Source: a virus. From it: a DNA stretch of 20,947 nucleotides. Location: IMG/VR virus record IMGVR_UViG_3300035698_017853, positions 1 through 20,947 of that record. The stretch is one strand, 5' to 3'. The position numbers were made by a program, and so were the translations under genes. Positions 13,462 through 20,947 of this stretch are shown here, in pieces. Position 1 is the first letter of the stretch; every line of letters begins with the position of its first letter. The notes beneath the pieces were generated by a model. It saw only the letters and a program-made list of their open reading frames with translations. It ran no database searches and had not been told where the DNA came from.

Positions 13462-13728
13462 ATGACAAAACTCGCTCAGACTTTCAATGTGGGAGACCGC
13501 AGCGACATCACTCCAGAAAAGCTTTTGGAGCTGATAGAGGTCATGTACACGGATCTAGCAGTAGCAATCAACAGAAAGCCTGATTTTGTAGAGCGTGCGT
13601 CTGATGGTCTTACTACGGATGCTTTTCTTTCGAATGGGGATATAAATCTAAACTCAATCACCAAAAAGGTGGAGGTCCTTAGCAGTCACAGTAGCGCTAC
13701 GGCCGTAACATGGAAAACAATCAGTTAA
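13462..13728 (+). CDS. Small virion-associated protein (88 aa), unknown
   Basis: The predicted protein has 88 residues and lies two bases after the nozzle gene. A helical first half (ITPEKLLELIEVMYTDLAVA) is followed by INRKPDFVERASDGLTTDAF, LSNGDINLNSITKKVEVLSS and a C-terminal SATAVTWKTIS. The second half has the look of short phage proteins that form trimeric fibre-like ends. Similar small genes occur next to nozzle genes in podoviruses, and in P22 the needle gene 26 has this position, but this protein is much shorter than gp26 (233 residues), so it is not called a needle. Confidence 0.65.
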   Translation: MTKLAQTFNVGDRSDITPEKLLELIEVMYTDLAVAINRKPDFVERASDGLTTDAFLSNGDINLNSITKKVEVLSSHSSATAVTWKTIS

Positions 13729-13739
13729 GAGGCAAAAAA

Positions 13740-14339
13740 ATGGGTTCATTTTCAACACTTTTGGCTACTACGGCGGCAAACGTCGCAGGTTCTGCGCTTG
13801 GGGGTGCCTTAGCCAATAAAAGGCCTCAACAATCAAAGCTACAGAAGAAAAAGAATCAATTGATTGACGATCTTCTTGCGTCTCTTAGTGGAAACGGTCA
13901 GTTCAGTGATCTTTTCAACGTAGACGAGGATTCCTTTCAAAAGTCATTTGTGGACCCCGCTAAGTCCAGGTTTAAAAACCAGACAGCACCTCAGATACAG
14001 CAAAGCTTCATTGCTGGGGGACAGCAGCGCGGTACTGGCCTAGAAGACACGTTGACCCGTGCGGGCGTGGACATGGATCAGCTCTTGAACCAGCATTTTG
14101 CTCAATTCCAGGAAAGCGCCGATAGCCGAAAGACTGGTGCAATCAACACTATTTTGGGAACGGCGGATAATTCTCAGCAGGGAATAGGCGGAAGCCAGGC
14201 GGCCTCTCAAGCAGCGGGAGGGTTTTTGAGTAGTGGAGGCTTTAGCGCGGCAATTGAAAACTTCATGAATAGTAAAGCTAAACCTACTTTGGCTCCAAAA
14301 TCCAATCAAATTGAAACAATTCGCAAGGGGTTTGCATAA
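13740..14339 (+). CDS. Ejection (internal virion) protein candidate 1, gp7-like
   Basis: The ATG at 13740 is preferred over that at 13710, which overlaps the preceding gene, because AAGAGG lies at 13727-13732. This gives 199 residues. The start FSTLLATTAANVAGSALGGALA is a Gly/Ala/Ser-rich hydrophobic helix of the sort found at the N-terminus of ejected podovirus proteins, and the rest is Gln/Ser/Gly-rich and helical (TAPQIQQSFIAGGQQRGTGL, QLLNQHFAQFQESADSRK). Size agrees with P22 gp7 (229) and T7 gp14 (196), the smallest of the three proteins that leave the particle with the DNA and form a conduit across the envelope. The next two coupled genes would be the other two. The role is by position and composition. 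Confidence 0.65.
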   Translation: MGSFSTLLATTAANVAGSALGGALANKRPQQSKLQKKKNQLIDDLLASLSGNGQFSDLFNVDEDSFQKSFVDPAKSRFKNQTAPQIQQSFIAGGQQRGTGLEDTLTRAGVDMDQLLNQHFAQFQESADSRKTGAINTILGTADNSQQGIGGSQAASQAAGGFLSSGGFSAAIENFMNSKAKPTLAPKSNQIETIRKGFA

Positions 14340-15127
14340 TGTCATCGCCTCCATCACCATTTGAAATTGGTCGTTCCTTCGGGAATAACATAGCTCCTGT
14401 AATTAGAAGAGCTGGACAAAGATCCGCTTTGGACGACGTTCTGTTACAGGCTTCCAATGCTCAATCACCCGAAGAGGCTAGCGGCCTGATAGGTCAAATT
14501 CTCCAGAATGTTGCTCCAGAAAATCAAGCGACTGCTCTGAAAATCCTTGAAAACAGGATGACCCAACTGCAAACGACACGTCAAAATGATGCTGATATAA
14601 AAGCTGGTCTAGATCCCAATCTTATCAATGCGTCTGCAGACGTGCGCAAGGCTGGTTTGTCTAAAAGCGAGGAAAGCAAACTTCCTATCACCCTTCCGCA
14701 GTCACTCGACCAAGCGGAAAAACGCTTTAAAAATGAAAGCGCGAACTTGCGTCTCCCATTCGAGAAGAGTGATGCTTTTGGCAACATCTTCATTGATTTT
14801 GAAGGCGACGACGCAAAAAGAACCACTGTTCTAAAGCAGCTGGATCAGAAGTTATCGAACTACCAGAATCAGGTGGCTAGGGAGTACACAAGAGCTGGGC
14901 AACAAGTGCCCCAGGACGTTCTTGATTCGATTGCCGCATCGGTCATGGTGAAGGTTGGTGAGGAAGTGGTGCCACTAGACGTAGCGAATAACTTACAAGA
15001 TCTAGAAAAACGTGCTCCGGCTAAACAGAACAAAGGGAAAACAGCCACCGATCCTAGTACAGGCAGGAAGGTTATAAGCGACGGAGTAGAGTGGAAATTC
15101 GTTGAAACAGTACAGGAAGGTGTCTGA
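14339..15127 (+). CDS. Ejection protein candidate 2 (262 aa)
   Basis: It encodes 262 residues, and its ATG overlaps the preceding stop by one base (TAATG). The first 90 residues are amphipathic helices (NIAPVIRRAGQRSALDDVLL, LIGQILQNVAPENQATALKI), then a charged middle (DQAEKRFKNESANLRLPFEK), a helical stretch (LKQLDQKLSNYQNQVAREYT) and a C-terminus ending in a probable small sheet (GRKVISDGVEWKFVETVQ). No catalytic motif is seen. It lies between a gp7-like gene and the giant gene, the order expected for the middle ejection protein (P22 gp20 position), though it is shorter than gp20 (471). The stop overlaps the start of the giant gene (TGATG). Confidence 0.6.
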   Translation: MSSPPSPFEIGRSFGNNIAPVIRRAGQRSALDDVLLQASNAQSPEEASGLIGQILQNVAPENQATALKILENRMTQLQTTRQNDADIKAGLDPNLINASADVRKAGLSKSEESKLPITLPQSLDQAEKRFKNESANLRLPFEKSDAFGNIFIDFEGDDAKRTTVLKQLDQKLSNYQNQVAREYTRAGQQVPQDVLDSIAASVMVKVGEEVVPLDVANNLQDLEKRAPAKQNKGKTATDPSTGRKVISDGVEWKFVETVQEGV

Positions 15128-18100
15128 TGTTTGTACTCGACGAGCTGGAGATAGAGCAACAGGGGTCTTTGGGTCCCATCCCAGAGCCAGAACAGCAAGA
15201 GGAAGACGTTGCATCTGGCTTTCAGCTCGACGAATCCACTGACATCGAGCTTGTATCGACGAAGGGCTTTCAGCTCGACGAATCCTCTGACATCGAGAGT
15301 GACCCCGTCGTGGGTTTTCAGCTGGACAATCCGACAAGTGAAGATCCAAGCCTTTTGTCTAAGGCCCTTGAGACTCAACAGGACCTTTTGGAAGGAACAG
15401 GACTGTTTGTCAAAGCCTACAGAAATATTATAGAGCCCCTGTACAGCTTCTCTAAGAATCAGGAGGGGTCTGACGTTCTACTGCCTAATGAGAAGTTCGA
15501 GAAGCCTAAGCCGACCGACAGTGCTCAGTTGGCGACCATCGATATCCTGTCTCGCACCCCTGATATTATCCGTGAGGAGGTGCTTGAAGAGATTTCCAAG
15601 TTGATCAGTGAGAAGAAGCTGTTCAGCAAGGAAGCTGTGGAACGCCTTCCGATTGACAAAGCGATTAGCGAAGAAATCCTTCTTACTGGAAAGACAGACA
15701 CCAAGGAATTCAAGAGAGAAATATCGTTTGCTCAAGCGGCTAGGGAAGGAAAGCAGGAATCAGCAACAGGCATATTGACCGGACAGGGAGTGAAGGACTT
15801 CGAAACCTTACTCGCTCGCTCAGAGTCAGAGCTACCCTTCCTCAAGCGACAGGCAAAGAACCTCACCAAGATCATCTATGACCTTCCCGCGTTTGTAACA
15901 GGCGGTGCAGTAGCGTCGTTGCCTGCTGGTGGTCCTGAGACTCCCGCTGGAGCCATCTTAGCGGGTGCAGGGGCATTCGCGACACAATCCCTAGTAGAGT
16001 CTGCCAATGCAGAGGCTTTGCGCCTTGTGAGCGAACATCCAGAGCTTGAAGGTAAGACCCTAGGACAGCTATCTGCTCTAGTCACAGATAGACAAGCTTT
16101 AGAGGCCGTAGGTCTTAACGTTCTGGAGTCGGGCAGCATCGGCGCTCTTCTAGCGATCAACCCGTTGATGAGGGCATTGGAAAAGACTCCTTTAGCGAGG
16201 CTCTTTAAGATACCCATCGTCAAAACGGCGACGGCTGGAGCTTCAGAGGTAGCGACCTTAACAACCGTCCCAGCTGTTCTACGTGGAAAAATCCCCACCG
16301 CAGAAGACTTTTTAGACAATGCTGTTCTAATTGGGACTCTGAAAGCCACAGGCGCCACAGCCTCAAAATTAGCAAGTTATGCCAAACGCAAAGAGATCAC
16401 CAGCGAACAGTGGGTGAAAAAGCTTGGCGACCACGTTACAGAGAAGGATCTTTCTGATCTGGACAACGCTAGAACCATCGAGGAAGTGGACGCAATCCTA
16501 AAGGATGTTCAGAGCAGGTCGCCTGAAGAAGCCGAGCTTGAGAGCAAGCCTAAGGACGCGAAGGACGCTGAACCTAAGCGAGATACCTCCGAAAAGCCTA
16601 CAGAAGACGAGAAATCCCAAAAAGAACTTAAAGAGAAGCTCAAGACTCAAGAACGGGCTCTTGAAGACTTCATTGAAGAGGCTTCTAGCAGTGAATCGAT
16701 AACGGATAAGATTGAGTCCAAGCGTGTGAGAAAACTCAACCGCCGTATTGAAGACACTAAGAGGAAGTTGTCATCTCTGGAGCCAAGTGAAAACCTAAAG
16801 GCTGATAGAAGTGGCCTAGAACAACCTGAGCAAGCTCATCGTCCCGTGAAACTTGGAACTGAGCTGGATGTACCTAAAAGTAGAGAGGTATTGCAGCTTT
16901 TCAAGGACGCCTTCGAAGATACACCGATCAGGATTGGTAAGTTCGCCGCAGGAAAAAAGAAAACGACAGAAGGACGCTTCCGTCCAAGTGACAATGTCAT
17001 AAGACTAAAAAACGTTAGCGATCTAGAGACGGCCGCCCATGAGTTTGGCCACCGATTACATATGGAAATGTATGGCGGCGAAGGGGACCTCTTTACGCAA
17101 ATGAGCAATATCAAGGCCGCTCTAGCGCCACACCTTGGTGAACTTAAACCCATATCGAGATATAAACCTCATGATCTAGAGGGATTCGCAGAATTCACTA
17201 GAATGTACGTCACCAATCCAGAATCAGCAAAGAAGCTAGCACCGAACTTCTTCAAAGCATTCGAATCCTCTTTGGATAACGACGCCCCGAAAGTTAAGAC
17301 TGCGTTGCTTAAAGCTAGAGACATGTTTGAAAAGAGGATCAATGCCGATCCTGTGGCGAGGGTCTATTCCCATATAGAGAGTAGTCAGGACCACACCTTT
17401 CTCCAAAAGATTGGAAAGTCGGTAAAAAAGAACTTCAGTGCAGACTCGCTCAAGACCAATTTTCTTGATGATTCCTTCGCTGTAAAGCGAGCGACCGCAG
17501 ACACATTAGGAGTCAGTCCCTCTCAGGTAGAAAACTGGAAGAGTCCTCTCAACCCGTATATAGCCGTTCGTGTTCTCAAAGGGTGGGCTGGCAAGTCAGA
17601 GGTCATGCTTAGGCACGAAACGTTCAACTACGGCGATTTAAAGGCCAATGGCAAGAGTTTCGAGGAGGTTATGTCTCCTATCAAGACCGTCGCTGAAAGA
17701 AGGGAACTTTCTGCCTACCTAGTGGCAAAGAGATCCGCATTACTCCGAAAGAGAGGTGTGGCAAGTGGTATCGATGAGCGATCAGAAGGCGCCACCATCA
17801 AAAGGCTAGAGAAGCAGTACGATCCTATAGCTGAAGAATTGAACGACTATCAGAATAGACTCTTAGAATACTACCGTGACTCAGGGATGCTGTCGCAGGA
17901 AGCCTTCTATAAGATGAAAGCGGTTAACAAATTCTATGTTCCATTCTTTAGGTTCTTCGAAGAGAGCGAGAAGCGGGCATCTGACAAGAGCGGAAGAGAT
18001 ACAGGGAAGCTTCAGGCCAAGCAGCTCATTAAGAAGATATTTGGCAGTGATAAACCAATTATCGACCCTCTAGAGTCCATCGTCGGGAACACATTCGCTA

Positions 18101-20043
18101 TGATTCAGCAAGCGGAAAAAAACGGTTTTGCTCAGAAGCTTTCATCTCTTACCGCTTTGAATCCGCGCGGTGGAAAGTTCATGGAAAAACTTCCTCCCAA
18201 GATGCAAAAGGTCTTTCAGATATCTAGGCAAGAGATTGTAGAGGCAATGATCTCTGAGGCCAAAAAGAGATCGTCCAAGCTAGAGAATGTTTCGGCTGAT
18301 GTTGAAATGGTGAATAAAGTCGTAGAGATGCTACCCGACTCTATTGCTAAGTGGCGACCAGGGGCATGGAGTCCCGGCGAGAACATCGTTACCGTTTACC
18401 GTGATGGAAAGCCTACATATTACGAAACCACTCCCGAGATATTCGAAATATTCAGTCGTGGCGGCTCCAAAGTCGAGGCTGATATCTTCAAAAGCCTATT
18501 GATTGCACCTGCTAGAGTTTTAAGAGCGGGTGCCATCCTGAACCCCAAGTTCATGTTGAAAAACGCTGTACGTGATTTAGTCGGCGGCCTGGTCTTTACC
18601 AAGGAATCGGGTAGGCCGATAATCGACGACGTATATAAGCCAATGCAGGGCCTCTTTAGCTCGATCAAAAAGGATCAGCTATACGTTGACTGGCTCAAGT
18701 CAGGTGGTGGCATGGCAACTATGCAATCCATCGACAAGAGCGTGGCTACAATCAAGAAGGGTCTTGGTAAAGGGCTGGAAAAAGTCCGACCGATAGCATT
18801 TTTACGTCGTGTTGGTGAAATCTCTGAGGAGATGAACCGCCTAGCTGAATTTAGCAAATCAATGGAGGCTATGGGGACTGACAGATGGCAAATGGAAATG
18901 GCCGCCTTTCAATCTAGAGACATCTCGATCGATTTTGCTAAGGTGGGCCTACAGACCAAAGCCATCAACCAGATGATTCCTTTCTGGAATGCTACCATAC
19001 AAGGTGGTGATAAACTGATTAGAACCTTGGCGTCTAAGGATCCTAAGATTATCCAATCATTCCTTACTCGTGCAACGGCTGGAATCGTTACGCCTACTCT
19101 GCTTTTACAGGCTGCTAACCATGGCGATCCAGACATTGACGAGATTGACGAGGTCACCAAGGACACTAACTGGTTATTCAAGAATCCTGTCACTGGCAAG
19201 ATCACCCAAATTCCCGTTCCATTTGAGACAGGAGTTATATTTCATGGCCTTGCTCGACGAGCGTTCAACTACATAGTGGACAAGGATCCAAGAGCCTTTG
19301 ATGGGTACTTCGGAAGCATTGTGAGTGCTTCATCGCCTGGATTCATTCCAGCATTTGCCCAGGTGCCGATTGAGATACGGGCGAATAAGGATTTTTGGCG
19401 GAATCAAAGAATTGTTGCACCCTCCCAGCTGGGACTAATCAGCGAGGAGCAATACGGGGTCTATACGAGTGAAACCGCTAAGGTACTAGCTAAGATGATG
19501 GGCAACATGCCCGGAGTGGATGCCTATACCAGTACACTTGCTTCGCCTGCAATAGTTGACCATTTCATCAAGAGCTATGGAGCAGGCTTCGGGCAAATGG
19601 CTCTTAGAGCAAGCGATAAAGCTCTCAAAACTGCTGGCATAGAGCCTGCGGTTGTCAAGCCAGAGGAGAGTCTTTTAAGGAAGCTGGGTCTTGACGCTTT
19701 CACCAGAGAATTTCCTACAGCTCGAACTAAGTCAGTCGAGCGATTCTATGACACCTGGGACCGATGGAATATACTAAATAGATCCATCAAATCTAAGATC
19801 GAAAAGGGCGACGAAGCAGGGGCTAGGCGACTACAGGCCGATCAGACGAAAATCACAAAGTTAGACATGCCTAGAATGGCAAAAGCCCTTCAGAAGAACC
19901 AAGCTTTGATCAACAACGTTTTTCATAACCCGACGATGACTGCTAAAGAGAAAAGAGAAATAATTAACAGGCTGTACATGCAGCAAATTATTATGGCCCG
20001 TGGATTTGTGGCTAATATTGACAGAGCAAACAAAAGAGACTAG
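15127..20043 (+). CDS. Giant polyvalent/ejection protein with zinc-peptidase motif
   Basis: The 1638-residue protein is the last and largest of the ejection set (P22 gp16 / T7 gp16 position). Its N-terminus has three 16-residue repeats starting GFQLD (residues 31, 47, 63). Residues about 254-300 are Gly/Ala-rich and hydrophobic (GGAVASLPAGG, GAILAGAGAFATQSLV) and could insert in membrane. A charged coiled coil spans about 460-560. Residues 638-642 are HEFGH, and Glu689 in GFAEF lies 47 residues later, the HEXXH...E ligand set of gluzincin-type metallopeptidases. From about 870 on, the chain resembles the 'large polyvalent protein-associated' regions of phage proteins co-injected with DNA: NPKFMLKNAVRD (1139-1150) and, from 1259, QMIPFWNATIQGGDKLIRTL as in LPD38-type domains. 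No lysozyme or transglycosylase motif is visible. Its stop shares CTAG with the stop of the opposing gene. Confidence 0.82.
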   Translation: MFVLDELEIEQQGSLGPIPEPEQQEEDVASGFQLDESTDIELVSTKGFQLDESSDIESDPVVGFQLDNPTSEDPSLLSKALETQQDLLEGTGLFVKAYRNIIEPLYSFSKNQEGSDVLLPNEKFEKPKPTDSAQLATIDILSRTPDIIREEVLEEISKLISEKKLFSKEAVERLPIDKAISEEILLTGKTDTKEFKREISFAQAAREGKQESATGILTGQGVKDFETLLARSESELPFLKRQAKNLTKIIYDLPAFVTGGAVASLPAGGPETPAGAILAGAGAFATQSLVESANAEALRLVSEHPELEGKTLGQLSALVTDRQALEAVGLNVLESGSIGALLAINPLMRALEKTPLARLFKIPIVKTATAGASEVATLTTVPAVLRGKIPTAEDFLDNAVLIGTLKATGATASKLASYAKRKEITSEQWVKKLGDHVTEKDLSDLDNARTIEEVDAILKDVQSRSPEEAELESKPKDAKDAEPKRDTSEKPTEDEKSQKELKEKLKTQERALEDFIEEASSSESITDKIESKRVRKLNRRIEDTKRKLSSLEPSENLKADRSGLEQPEQAHRPVKLGTELDVPKSREVLQLFKDAFEDTPIRIGKFAAGKKKTTEGRFRPSDNVIRLKNVSDLETAAHEFGHRLHMEMYGGEGDLFTQMSNIKAALAPHLGELKPISRYKPHDLEGFAEFTRMYVTNPESAKKLAPNFFKAFESSLDNDAPKVKTALLKARDMFEKRINADPVARVYSHIESSQDHTFLQKIGKSVKKNFSADSLKTNFLDDSFAVKRATADTLGVSPSQVENWKSPLNPYIAVRVLKGWAGKSEVMLRHETFNYGDLKANGKSFEEVMSPIKTVAERRELSAYLVAKRSALLRKRGVASGIDERSEGATIKRLEKQYDPIAEELNDYQNRLLEYYRDSGMLSQEAFYKMKAVNKFYVPFFRFFEESEKRASDKSGRDTGKLQAKQLIKKIFGSDKPIIDPLESIVGNTFAMIQQAEKNGFAQKLSSLTALNPRGGKFMEKLPPKMQKVFQISRQEIVEAMISEAKKRSSKLENVSADVEMVNKVVEMLPDSIAKWRPGAWSPGENIVTVYRDGKPTYYETTPEIFEIFSRGGSKVEADIFKSLLIAPARVLRAGAILNPKFMLKNAVRDLVGGLVFTKESGRPIIDDVYKPMQGLFSSIKKDQLYVDWLKSGGGMATMQSIDKSVATIKKGLGKGLEKVRPIAFLRRVGEISEEMNRLAEFSKSMEAMGTDRWQMEMAAFQSRDISIDFAKVGLQTKAINQMIPFWNATIQGGDKLIRTLASKDPKIIQSFLTRATAGIVTPTLLLQAANHGDPDIDEIDEVTKDTNWLFKNPVTGKITQIPVPFETGVIFHGLARRAFNYIVDKDPRAFDGYFGSIVSASSPGFIPAFAQVPIEIRANKDFWRNQRIVAPSQLGLISEEQYGVYTSETAKVLAKMMGNMPGVDAYTSTLASPAIVDHFIKSYGAGFGQMALRASDKALKTAGIEPAVVKPEESLLRKLGLDAFTREFPTARTKSVERFYDTWDRWNILNRSIKSKIEKGDEAGARRLQADQTKITKLDMPRMAKALQKNQALINNVFHNPTMTAKEKREIINRLYMQQIIMARGFVANIDRANKRD
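15217..15330 (+). repeat. Three in-frame 48-bp repeats coding GFQLD motifs
   Basis: Units begin at 15217, 15265 and 15313, exactly 48 bp apart. The first two share GGCTTTCAGCTCGACGAATC, and their protein is GFQLDEST/SDIE; the third is shortened to GFQLDNPT with different codons. The strict 16-residue spacing, an acidic surround and a hydrophobic Phe-Leu core look like a series of short linear binding motifs in a flexible tail. Confidence 0.85.
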
Positions 20044-20216
20044 TTATCCTCGTCCCGCTGTTTTTCTTCGCAGAGAATGATCTCCTCTCTCAAAGCCACC
20101 CGCATGAATTGCGATACGCTTGTCCCCGCCTCAGCAGCACATATTTTGGCCTGCCTGTATAGTTCTTTTGGCAGGTAGACGGTCGTTCTTTGGAACTTTG
20201 GATTTTCTTTGGTCAT
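20040..20216 (-). CDS. Arc-like ribbon-helix-helix protein (58 aa)
   Basis: It encodes 58 residues on the minus strand, ATG 20216-20214 to TAG 20042-20040. FQRTTVYLPKELYRQAK forms the DNA-contacting strand and first helix, AAEAGTSVSQFMRVALREEI the turn and second helix, and the end is charged (CEEKQRDEDN). The layout and length match Arc of phage P22 (53 residues). It stands between the giant ejection gene and the fibre gene, where P22 keeps its arc and mnt repressors. It is the only minus-strand gene in the right half. No ribosome binding site is visible, and the promoter candidate at 20223-20251 would start the RNA about at the ATG, so a leaderless message is possible. A palindrome overlaps that promoter. 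Likely target: its own promoter and perhaps the fibre promoter, by inference. Confidence 0.85.
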   Translation of the reverse strand: MTKENPKFQRTTVYLPKELYRQAKICAAEAGTSVSQFMRVALREEIILCEEKQRDEDN

Positions 20217-20218
20217 GT

Positions 20219-20228
20219 CATAATTATG
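20219..20228. promoter_or_regulatory. 10-bp palindrome, candidate RHH operator
   Basis: CATAATTATG is a perfect 10-bp palindrome that contains the -10 box of the RHH gene promoter and ends three bases before its start codon. A protein bound here would block that promoter, which is the position expected for autoregulation. Its short, AT-rich form makes chance possible. Confidence 0.4.
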
Positions 20229-20251
20229 CTTTTATTTTCATAAAACCTCAA
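20223..20251 (-). promoter_or_regulatory. Sigma70-like promoter of the Arc-like gene
   Basis: On the minus strand TTGAGG (20251-20246) and CATAAT (20228-20223) match the -35 and -10 consensus at four and five of six positions with the ideal 17-base spacer. The ATG begins seven bases after the -10 box, so the transcript would have little or no leader. Confidence 0.55.
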
Positions 20252-20283
20252 GAAATTGCGCCTAGCAGAGCTAATGTATGCTA

Positions 20284-20292
20284 TGGTAAAAT
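20284..20292 (+). promoter_or_regulatory. Extended -10 promoter candidate for the fibre gene
   Basis: TGGTAAAAT is an extended -10 element (TGn plus TAAAAT). The start point would be near 20299, leaving about 25 bases of leader that include AAGAGGA before the fibre ATG at 20324. No good -35 is present, which extended -10 promoters can tolerate. A small inverted repeat TAGC-AGA-GCTA (20263-20273) lies just upstream. A divergent start from the RHH gene means the fibre gene need not depend on the long late operon. Confidence 0.4.
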
Positions 20293-20323
20293 TTTCAATC
20301 ACCACTCTAATCAAGAGGATTAA

Positions 20324-20947
20324 ATGTCTCGATATTCCAACCCAGTTTCCTACACGGGCCGCAAAGCAAGCAAAGTCACTTCAGGCCAAGCAAGGTTTGC
20401 GACTGCGACAGAAGCAACCTCAACCACCATCGACGATCTAATGATCAGTCCTAAGACTTTGGCGAGTGCGTCGGGTGCCGACTTCGCTTCCCCCCCAGCT
20501 ATCGGGAACACCACTCCAGCAGCAGGAACATTCACTGTATTGATAGGGAATACGTCTGTCTCCGCACCTAGCTATACAACAGCAGCAGCTGTTAACTTAG
20601 ATATGACCGTAGTGGCTGGCCAAGATATGGTCGTCAAGATGGGTGACGCAGCCGGAGCCAACAAAGTTAGCTTCACTGATTCTGCTGATGTTGAGGTAGC
20701 TGACCTTGATTCAGAAGGTACCCTGACAGTGGTCAATATGGACGGCATCATAGGTGCCTCCACGCCAGCAGCCATTACGGGAACGACTGTAGTGGGTAAC
20801 ACCTCAGTGTCTACTCCTCTATACACGACCGCAGCAGCTGTTAACTTAGATATGACCGTAGTGGCTGGCCAAGATATGGTCGTCAAGATGGGTGACGCAG
20901 CCGGAGCCAACAAAGTTAGCTTCACTGATTCTGCTGATGTTGAGGTA
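20324..20947 (+). CDS. Tail fibre/tailspike gene, N-terminal part (runs off the window)
   Basis: The frame is open from ATG 20324 to the window end (208 codons). AAGAGGA lies upstream. The N-terminus MSRYSNPVSYTGRKASKVTS is followed by FATATEATSTTIDDLMISPK, and then Gly/Thr/Ala/Val-rich beta-repeat sequence. An 83-residue module appears twice: NTTPAAGTFTV... / TTAAAVNLDMTVVAGQDMVV / KMGDAAGANKVSFTDSADVE. The module is typical of trimeric fibre shafts that repeat a strand-turn unit. It sits where phages place the host-recognition fibre or tailspike gene, after the ejection genes. The receptor-binding end and full length are not visible. Confidence 0.8.
   Translation, partial: MSRYSNPVSYTGRKASKVTSGQARFATATEATSTTIDDLMISPKTLASASGADFASPPAIGNTTPAAGTFTVLIGNTSVSAPSYTTAAAVNLDMTVVAGQDMVVKMGDAAGANKVSFTDSADVEVADLDSEGTLTVVNMDGIIGASTPAAITGTTVVGNTSVSTPLYTTAAAVNLDMTVVAGQDMVVKMGDAAGANKVSFTDSADVEV
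20582..20698 (+). repeat. Direct repeat in fibre gene, copy 1
   Basis: These 117 bp are identical, including silent codon positions, to 20831-20947, at a period of 249 bp (83 codons). The bases before (20581 vs 20830) differ. The unit is part of the fibre-shaft module. Confidence 0.95.
20831..20947 (+). repeat. Direct repeat in fibre gene, copy 2 (cut by window end)
   Basis: This is the second copy of the 117-bp sequence at 20582-20698 with no difference up to the last base of the window. Identity may extend further. Complete identity at synonymous sites points to recent duplication or gene conversion. Confidence 0.95.

Follow-up and report, generated by a model that had tools for sequence, protein, structure and literature searches.

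In the morphogenetic clusters of P22-like phages, foreign genes occupy a single site, the interval from the ejection genes to the tailspike gene. Villafane et al. (2008; PMC2629481), who pointed this out, asked whether this site is merely tolerant of insertions or reflects a single ancestral insertion, and also considered a possibly accidental role of the region in tailspike dosage. According to the account of Adams et al. (1985) given in the same paper, the P22 region preceding gene 9 is thought to influence the entry of the late transcript into the tailspike gene, and Mnt and Arc are possibly involved in gene 9 read-through. An mnt-only region has been described in phage L (PMC8022706). Likewise, in Salmonella phage ST64T, mnt stands alone on the minus strand, 135 bp from gene 9, and the spacer holds AAGACCACCGTGGTCTTA, an operator-like palindrome. 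In P22 itself, the order is mnt on the minus strand, arc and ant on the plus strand, a terminator, and gene 9. Among plasmid regulators, CopG is an established small ribbon-helix-helix (RHH) protein that represses its own promoter by means of a palindrome that lies over the promoter.

The DNA analyzed here, the window, is a 20,947-bp IMG/VR record from an uncultured bacterial virus. It encodes a portal protein of the P22_portal family (PF16510; 158 bits), an SU10-type adaptor, and a giant ejection-type protein of 1638 aa (15127..20043, plus strand) with an LPD38 domain (109 bits), whose relatives occur in short-tailed phages. The source is a P22-portal phage, probably short-tailed; since its portal is of the P22 type, the preliminary description of the DNA was mistaken in calling it a phage otherwise unlike P22. 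The last gene of the window is a fibre-type gene (20324..20947, plus strand) truncated at the contig end, with the N-terminal head MSRYSNPVSYTGRKA... and a ribosome-binding site, AAGAGG (20313-20318), ahead of its ATG at 20324. This fibre head belongs to a family common to 15 other records, and its full-length relatives match the tail-fibre PHROGs 910 and 972. No Rfam families or tRNAs were found in the window. A search for a T7-type RNA polymerase gave no match, and its control gave none either.

Between the ejection and fibre genes, the preliminary description had postulated an Arc-like RHH gene in the position of the P22 immI region, to be checked by profile search, structure prediction and comparison of the locus in related phages. 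The ORF in question (20040..20216, minus strand) encodes 58 aa, MTKENPKFQRTTVYLPKELYRQAKICAAEAGTSVSQFMRVALREEIILCEEKQRDEDN, with an ATG start and no internal stops. It converges with the ejection gene, and the stop codons of the two genes share CTAG (20040-20043), a 4-nt overlap. A gene of 58 aa is reachable for most gene finders; whether it falls below the usual ORF cut-offs, as had been claimed, varies with the program.

Pfam analysis of the 58-aa protein gave scores above the curated cut-offs for RHH_5 (26.1 bits; cut-off 26.0) and RHH_1 (24.8 bits; cut-off 20.5), which places it in the RHH superfamily. The AlphaFold2 model, obtained with 16 aligned relatives as input, has a mean pLDDT of 91.7 and predicted helices at residues 17-30 and 34-57; it has the strand-helix-helix fold, in which the N-terminal strand pairs only as a dimer. 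By analogy with CopG and Arc, the protein presumably forms a dimer pair. The top structural matches of the model are all RHH proteins, namely TacA1, AtaR, KacA, CopASO, Arc and CopG, with Z 6.3 over 45 residues for CopG (2cpg) and Z 6.3 over 46 residues for Arc (1baz). Because all the Z values are below 8, these matches support the predicted fold and point to no particular family. The Pfam Arc family (PF03869) is absent among the nine Pfam matches to the protein at E<=10, and comparison of the RHH family profile with Mnt gave a probability of 42% over 28 columns, and with Arc 2%. The 58-aa protein is a genuine RHH protein of the CopG/RHH_1 type rather than of the Arc/Mnt type. In the PHROGs search, the protein matched two families named 'Arc-like repressor' (E 3e-4).

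Homologues of the protein were found in two other phages, with 71-76% identity over the full length. Between the window and these two closest phages, third codon positions account for 27 of 36 and 29 of 45 nucleotide differences in the gene, and synonymous codon changes exceed non-synonymous ones (20 vs 8, and 24 vs 11). These ratios are indicative of strong purifying selection on the RHH gene in the closest three phages. A chance ORF with an RHH-like look, which only the short length would favour, was excluded by the third-position substitution bias, by the scores above the curated cut-offs and by the position, which is kept in 20 other records; we consider its probability negligible. The ORF, the Pfam matches, the fold and the substitution bias thus agree with the gene postulated before.

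The structural matches of the model comprise antitoxins and repressors. Many of them are antitoxins, and the best PDB sequence match is the antitoxin VapB26 (E 0.014), as might be expected of a solo antitoxin from a toxin-antitoxin pair. Nevertheless, the neighbours of the RHH gene in the window are the ejection and fibre genes, there is no toxin-sized partner gene and no other ORF of suitable size and strand, and the 58-aa protein has no long C-terminal toxin-binding tail, given that helix B ends at residue 57. We regard a solo antitoxin as very unlikely.

In the window, as in P22 and ST64T, the interval that separates the last ejection gene from the tailspike or fibre gene contains an RHH gene on the minus strand. 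The resemblance to P22 immI includes the place in the late operon, the minus-strand RHH gene (mnt in P22) and the P22-type portal. Unlike P22 immI, the window has no ant, which in P22 is the gene under immI control, no second RHH gene and no sar, its RHH protein is of another family, and the distance from the minus-strand RHH gene to the fibre gene is 107 bp, compared with about 1.4 kb to the tailspike gene in P22. There is no room for an antirepressor gene between the RHH and fibre genes of the window, and no ant, Bro-N or ANT antirepressor was found in the window record or in nine related records, several of them incomplete. The window locus is therefore not the immI region, and of the proposed equivalence only the place and the orientation, which are those of mnt, stand.

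The closest known arrangement is the mnt-only region of ST64T (and L). ST64T resembles the window in that a lone minus-strand RHH gene follows the last ejection gene and precedes the tailspike gene, with neither ant nor arc. However, ST64T Mnt is an 82-aa protein of the Arc/Mnt type with a C-terminal extension, while the window protein has 58 aa and is of the CopG/RHH_1 type; the ST64T palindrome is located in the middle of the spacer, while that of the window adjoins the RHH start codon; and the region is in flux in P22-like phages, while it is constant in the group of the window. What distinguishes our locus from the known arrangement would be the constancy of the site, the other RHH family and a positionally fixed, putative self-operator. 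In place and orientation the window gene corresponds to mnt, but it stands outside both the Arc/Mnt family and the immI system.

The divergent spacer between the RHH and fibre genes spans 20217..20323, i.e., the 107 bp reported initially, and ranges from 84 to 143 bp over 20 loci. A promoter scan identified a sigma-70-type promoter for the RHH gene (20223..20251, minus strand), with TTGAGG (20251-20246) and CATAAT (20228-20223) separated by 17 bp. The -10 box ends 6 nt ahead of the ATG, and, based on this distance, the RHH mRNA is probably leaderless, with little or no leader. The promoter hexamers are conserved with their 17-bp spacing: the layout TTG-N20-CATAATTATG-N-CATG is also present in L002 and L003, the records that carry the two homologues, and the L025 promoter reads TTGACA-17-TATAAT. 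An IMG/VR scan with TTG-N20-CATAATTATGNCATG also matched L008-L010, beyond the two known relatives; these have no RHH ORF, and the matches were attributed to chance.

We localized a candidate operator at 20216..20231 (TGTCATAATTATGCTT), with a perfect core, CATAATTATG (20219-20228), exactly over the -10 box of the RHH gene. As in an autoregulated RHH repressor, a palindromic candidate operator overlaps the gene's own promoter. In the window alone, the 10-bp core palindrome is not significant (p 0.4), and the case for it rests on comparison. The first conserved island in the alignment of the three closest spacers (20214-20231; 11 of 12 columns invariant) is the spacer maximum, and the two relatives in this alignment, L002 and L003, carry a full 16-bp palindrome, TGACATAATTATGTCA. 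Each of four phage records contains the core CATAATTATG a single time, at the position of the candidate operator, and its reversed control does not occur. Of the 20 loci, 10 carry a palindrome with 6 or more of 8 pairs whose centre lies 7-9 nt ahead of the RHH start codon; at other positions, the number of loci averages 1.8 and does not exceed 4, in a test that treats related loci as they are and ignores kinship. The sequence of the palindrome varies (TGTATATAATTACATACA in L025, GCATATATTCATATGC in L014 and GGTACAATGTACC in L043), and no palindrome was found at the operator position in L018, L026, L044 and others. A palindrome that stays in place while its sequence changes is the pattern that would be expected of a self-regulating repressor and its operator. 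In this respect, the locus resembles the CopG and ParD-type plasmid autorepressors, with a small RHH protein that may repress itself through a palindrome over its promoter; it differs from these plasmid systems in being located in a phage late region beside a fibre gene, with no replication or toxin partner.

A second conserved block was identified at 20286..20298 (plus strand), with the A/T-rich sequence TAAAATTTTCAA at 20287-20298; 10 of 12 columns are invariant in the three phages. It is located 26-38 bp ahead of the fibre ATG and may represent the -10/start region of a promoter for the fibre gene. This block, together with the divergent layout and the short spacer, would suit a repressor that occupies the fibre promoter and silences the fibre gene early. 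Nevertheless, the sole conserved palindrome lies approximately 55-80 bp from the block, on the -10 box of the RHH gene; no RHH half-site beyond chance was found near the fibre gene or at the second block; and the scan of the spacer detected no sigma-70 fibre promoter and nothing at 20286-20298. We consider such direct repression unlikely. It had been proposed that the spacer holds both promoters and that the RHH protein controls fibre expression or its own. The RHH promoter was found and is kept in relatives, but no fibre promoter was detected by the scan; self-regulation is favoured over direct control of the fibre promoter, with the palindrome only on the RHH -10 box.

The records L002 and L003 were retrieved from IMG/VR by a search with the RHH protein. 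They have the gene order of the window, and their spacers measure 107 and 108 bp. The genes adjoining the RHH gene encode 1638, 432 and 1049 aa in the window, L002 and L003 and show no BLAST relation; the RHH gene, the spacer and the fibre head are kept together while the neighbouring ejection protein varies. Thus, the gene, its candidate operator and the fibre head are a unit that is kept while the adjoining ejection gene is exchanged.

A wider search, with a 209-aa virion protein (window 13710-14339) and the fibre head, gave approximately 50 loci, among which many records end short of the ejection/fibre junction. In the 16 records with the fibre head (head-model E < 1e-17), the window included, a minus-strand RHH gene is located 84-133 bp ahead of the head without exception. 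RHH_1 is matched individually at E<=0.1 by nine of the 16 proteins. The L031 protein scores 37 bits with a model built without it, and those of L013 and L014, weak at 12 bits, were assigned mainly by place and sequence pattern. Additionally, five remoter records whose fibre gene is unrelated (L043, L044, L049, L050 and L054) have an RHH-type gene at the site, of a HicB/ParD/Omega-like flavour; that of L049 was assigned by similarity to the other four alone. The presence of the gene in all 16 fibre-head records supports the earlier suggestion of a kept regulatory site. In L037 and L032/L033, whose fibre heads are weaker or similar, there is no RHH gene at the site, and the RHH unit is therefore dispensable. 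The distances among RHH proteins correlate with those among fibre heads (Mantel r 0.31, p 0.011; 15 records) and less with those among virion proteins (A4; r 0.16, p 0.10; 15 records), a modest to weak correlation that fits an RHH-fibre-head unit partly independent of the structural genes. In cultured phages, the portal has a weak match to Pseudomonas phage Itty13 only, and the RHH protein, the 209-aa protein and the fibre-head consensus have none. The cultured relatives of the giant protein (HTVC204P, vB_ValP_FGH and BA3) have no annotated minus-strand gene before the next gene, and an IMG/VR scan with its C-terminal part gave no matches. The species genomes contain one weak RHH match (L011), at a contig end and without the fibre head of the window.

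Comparison of these loci reveals an RHH gene with its own predicted sigma-70-type promoter and a palindrome on that promoter, an arrangement that suggests autorepression by the RHH protein. In our main reading, to which we assign a probability of roughly 0.7, the RHH protein would be an autorepressor that mainly targets its own promoter, with a possible limit on late read-through into the fibre gene. The protein would bind the palindrome spanning the -10 box and the start of its own gene and would thereby shut off its own, probably leaderless, transcript. The rightward late transcript would cross the RHH gene and the occupied operator before reaching the fibre gene, and the RHH complex, together with the opposing promoter, might limit, lower or time late transcription into it. 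A read-through effect on the fibre gene is conceivable because no terminator was found between the converging ejection and RHH genes (the sole terminator-like match, 19971-19984, lies inside the ejection gene and is no better than chance), so that the transcript must cross the operator. Since there is no half-site near the fibre gene, this last step is one that we infer, along the lines proposed for P22; we consider it less likely than not, and any RHH effect on the fibre gene would be indirect, perhaps on late read-through. We are more doubtful still that a dedicated, old RHH-operator unit sets the receptor-binding-protein dose in this uncultured group of P22-portal podophages by gating late transcription. 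If it does, the effect of mnt and arc on the P22 tailspike would be an instance of a general device and not an accident. The question raised by Villafane et al. becomes testable here, in the form of whether a single RHH operator ahead of a fibre gene sets receptor-binding-protein dosage.

The RHH gene is not always alone at this site. In L043, L044, L050 and L054, it is the first gene of a 3-4.5 kb minus-strand cassette in the ejection-fibre interval, as the RHH gene is in CopG and ParD-type systems. The cassettes include a serine recombinase (Pfam Resolvase; 139 bits in L043, 137 bits in L044), an HTH_3 protein (43 bits, L043), a tyrosine integrase (Phage_integrase; 77.5 bits, L054) and, at the end of the cassette, a gene with an RNA polymerase alpha C-terminal domain (71 bits in L050, 65 bits in L054). 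Thus, a lysogeny- or plasmid-like module can occupy the site, and the RHH gene then lies at its promoter. With such company, the window gene could be a moron or relic, the leftover repressor of a former lysogeny or immunity cassette, directed at its own promoter or at incoming relatives and leaving the fibre gene unaffected. The varied morons at the corresponding place in P22-like phages (PMC2629481) and the different small minus-strand ORF that replaces the RHH gene in L032 are in line with this origin. Decay or variation would then be expected, yet the RHH gene is intact in all 16 fibre-head phages, and in the closest three, purifying selection on it is strong; the P22 group differs, with ten types across sixteen genomes (PMC2629481). 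We place a relic at somewhat below even odds. Returning to the autorepressor, the same kind of RHH gene heads cassettes in related phages, which suggests that the site goes back to an autorepressed leftward promoter, its old core, and that in the window it takes its minimal, one-gene form. From a lone gene to an integrase cassette, an intact RHH gene with a fixed candidate operator is present at the site in nearly all cases. An integrase was present in one of the ten records searched. Positions 7034-7627 of L050 resemble, by eye, the serine recombinase of L043 and L044.

The ribbon-helix-helix (RHH) proteins of three of the IMG/VR phage records compared with the window, L015, L026 and L019, are the three closest to one another. 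Their spacers have in common the sequence AATTGAATAA, which lies upstream of the RHH start in place of the window's palindrome, with L015 carrying a near match (ATTCAATTGAAT). This shared motif is a possible operator specific to the subgroup.

In four distant records with a fibre gene unrelated to that of the window, the RHH gene is the first gene of a leftward (minus-strand) cassette located between the ejection and fibre genes (L043, 6953-9937; L044, 13258-16829; L050, 5320-9312; L054, 14203-18577). These cassettes contain a serine recombinase or tyrosine integrase gene, together with HNH genes, and that of L043 includes an HTH_3 repressor gene. The final gene of the cassette in L054 (14203-14643), L050 (5320-5796) and L044 (13258-13650), also on the minus strand, encodes a small phage protein bearing the C-terminal domain of the RNA polymerase alpha subunit (alpha-CTD), detected at 65-71 bits in L054 and L050 and assigned by sequence similarity in L044. 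The N-terminus of the L054 protein is weakly HTH_17-like (19.8 bits). Proteins of this kind may be phage activators based on the alpha-CTD.

L032 is a relative that lacks the RHH gene; at its ejection/fibre junction the minus strand carries a small ORF (14207-14371) encoding a hydrophobic, possibly membrane-spanning stretch; in P22, the corresponding region holds the membrane protein gene sieA.

Beside the window's RHH gene, the 1638-aa giant protein (15127-20043) carries an LPD38 domain (109 bits), and the proteins encoded at the counterpart position in relatives, 432 and 1049 aa long, are unrelated. The window's fibre gene contains a 153-nt direct repeat (20546-20698 and 20795-20947; 91% identical, 249 bp apart), at which the assembly may have broken; the second copy forms the contig end.
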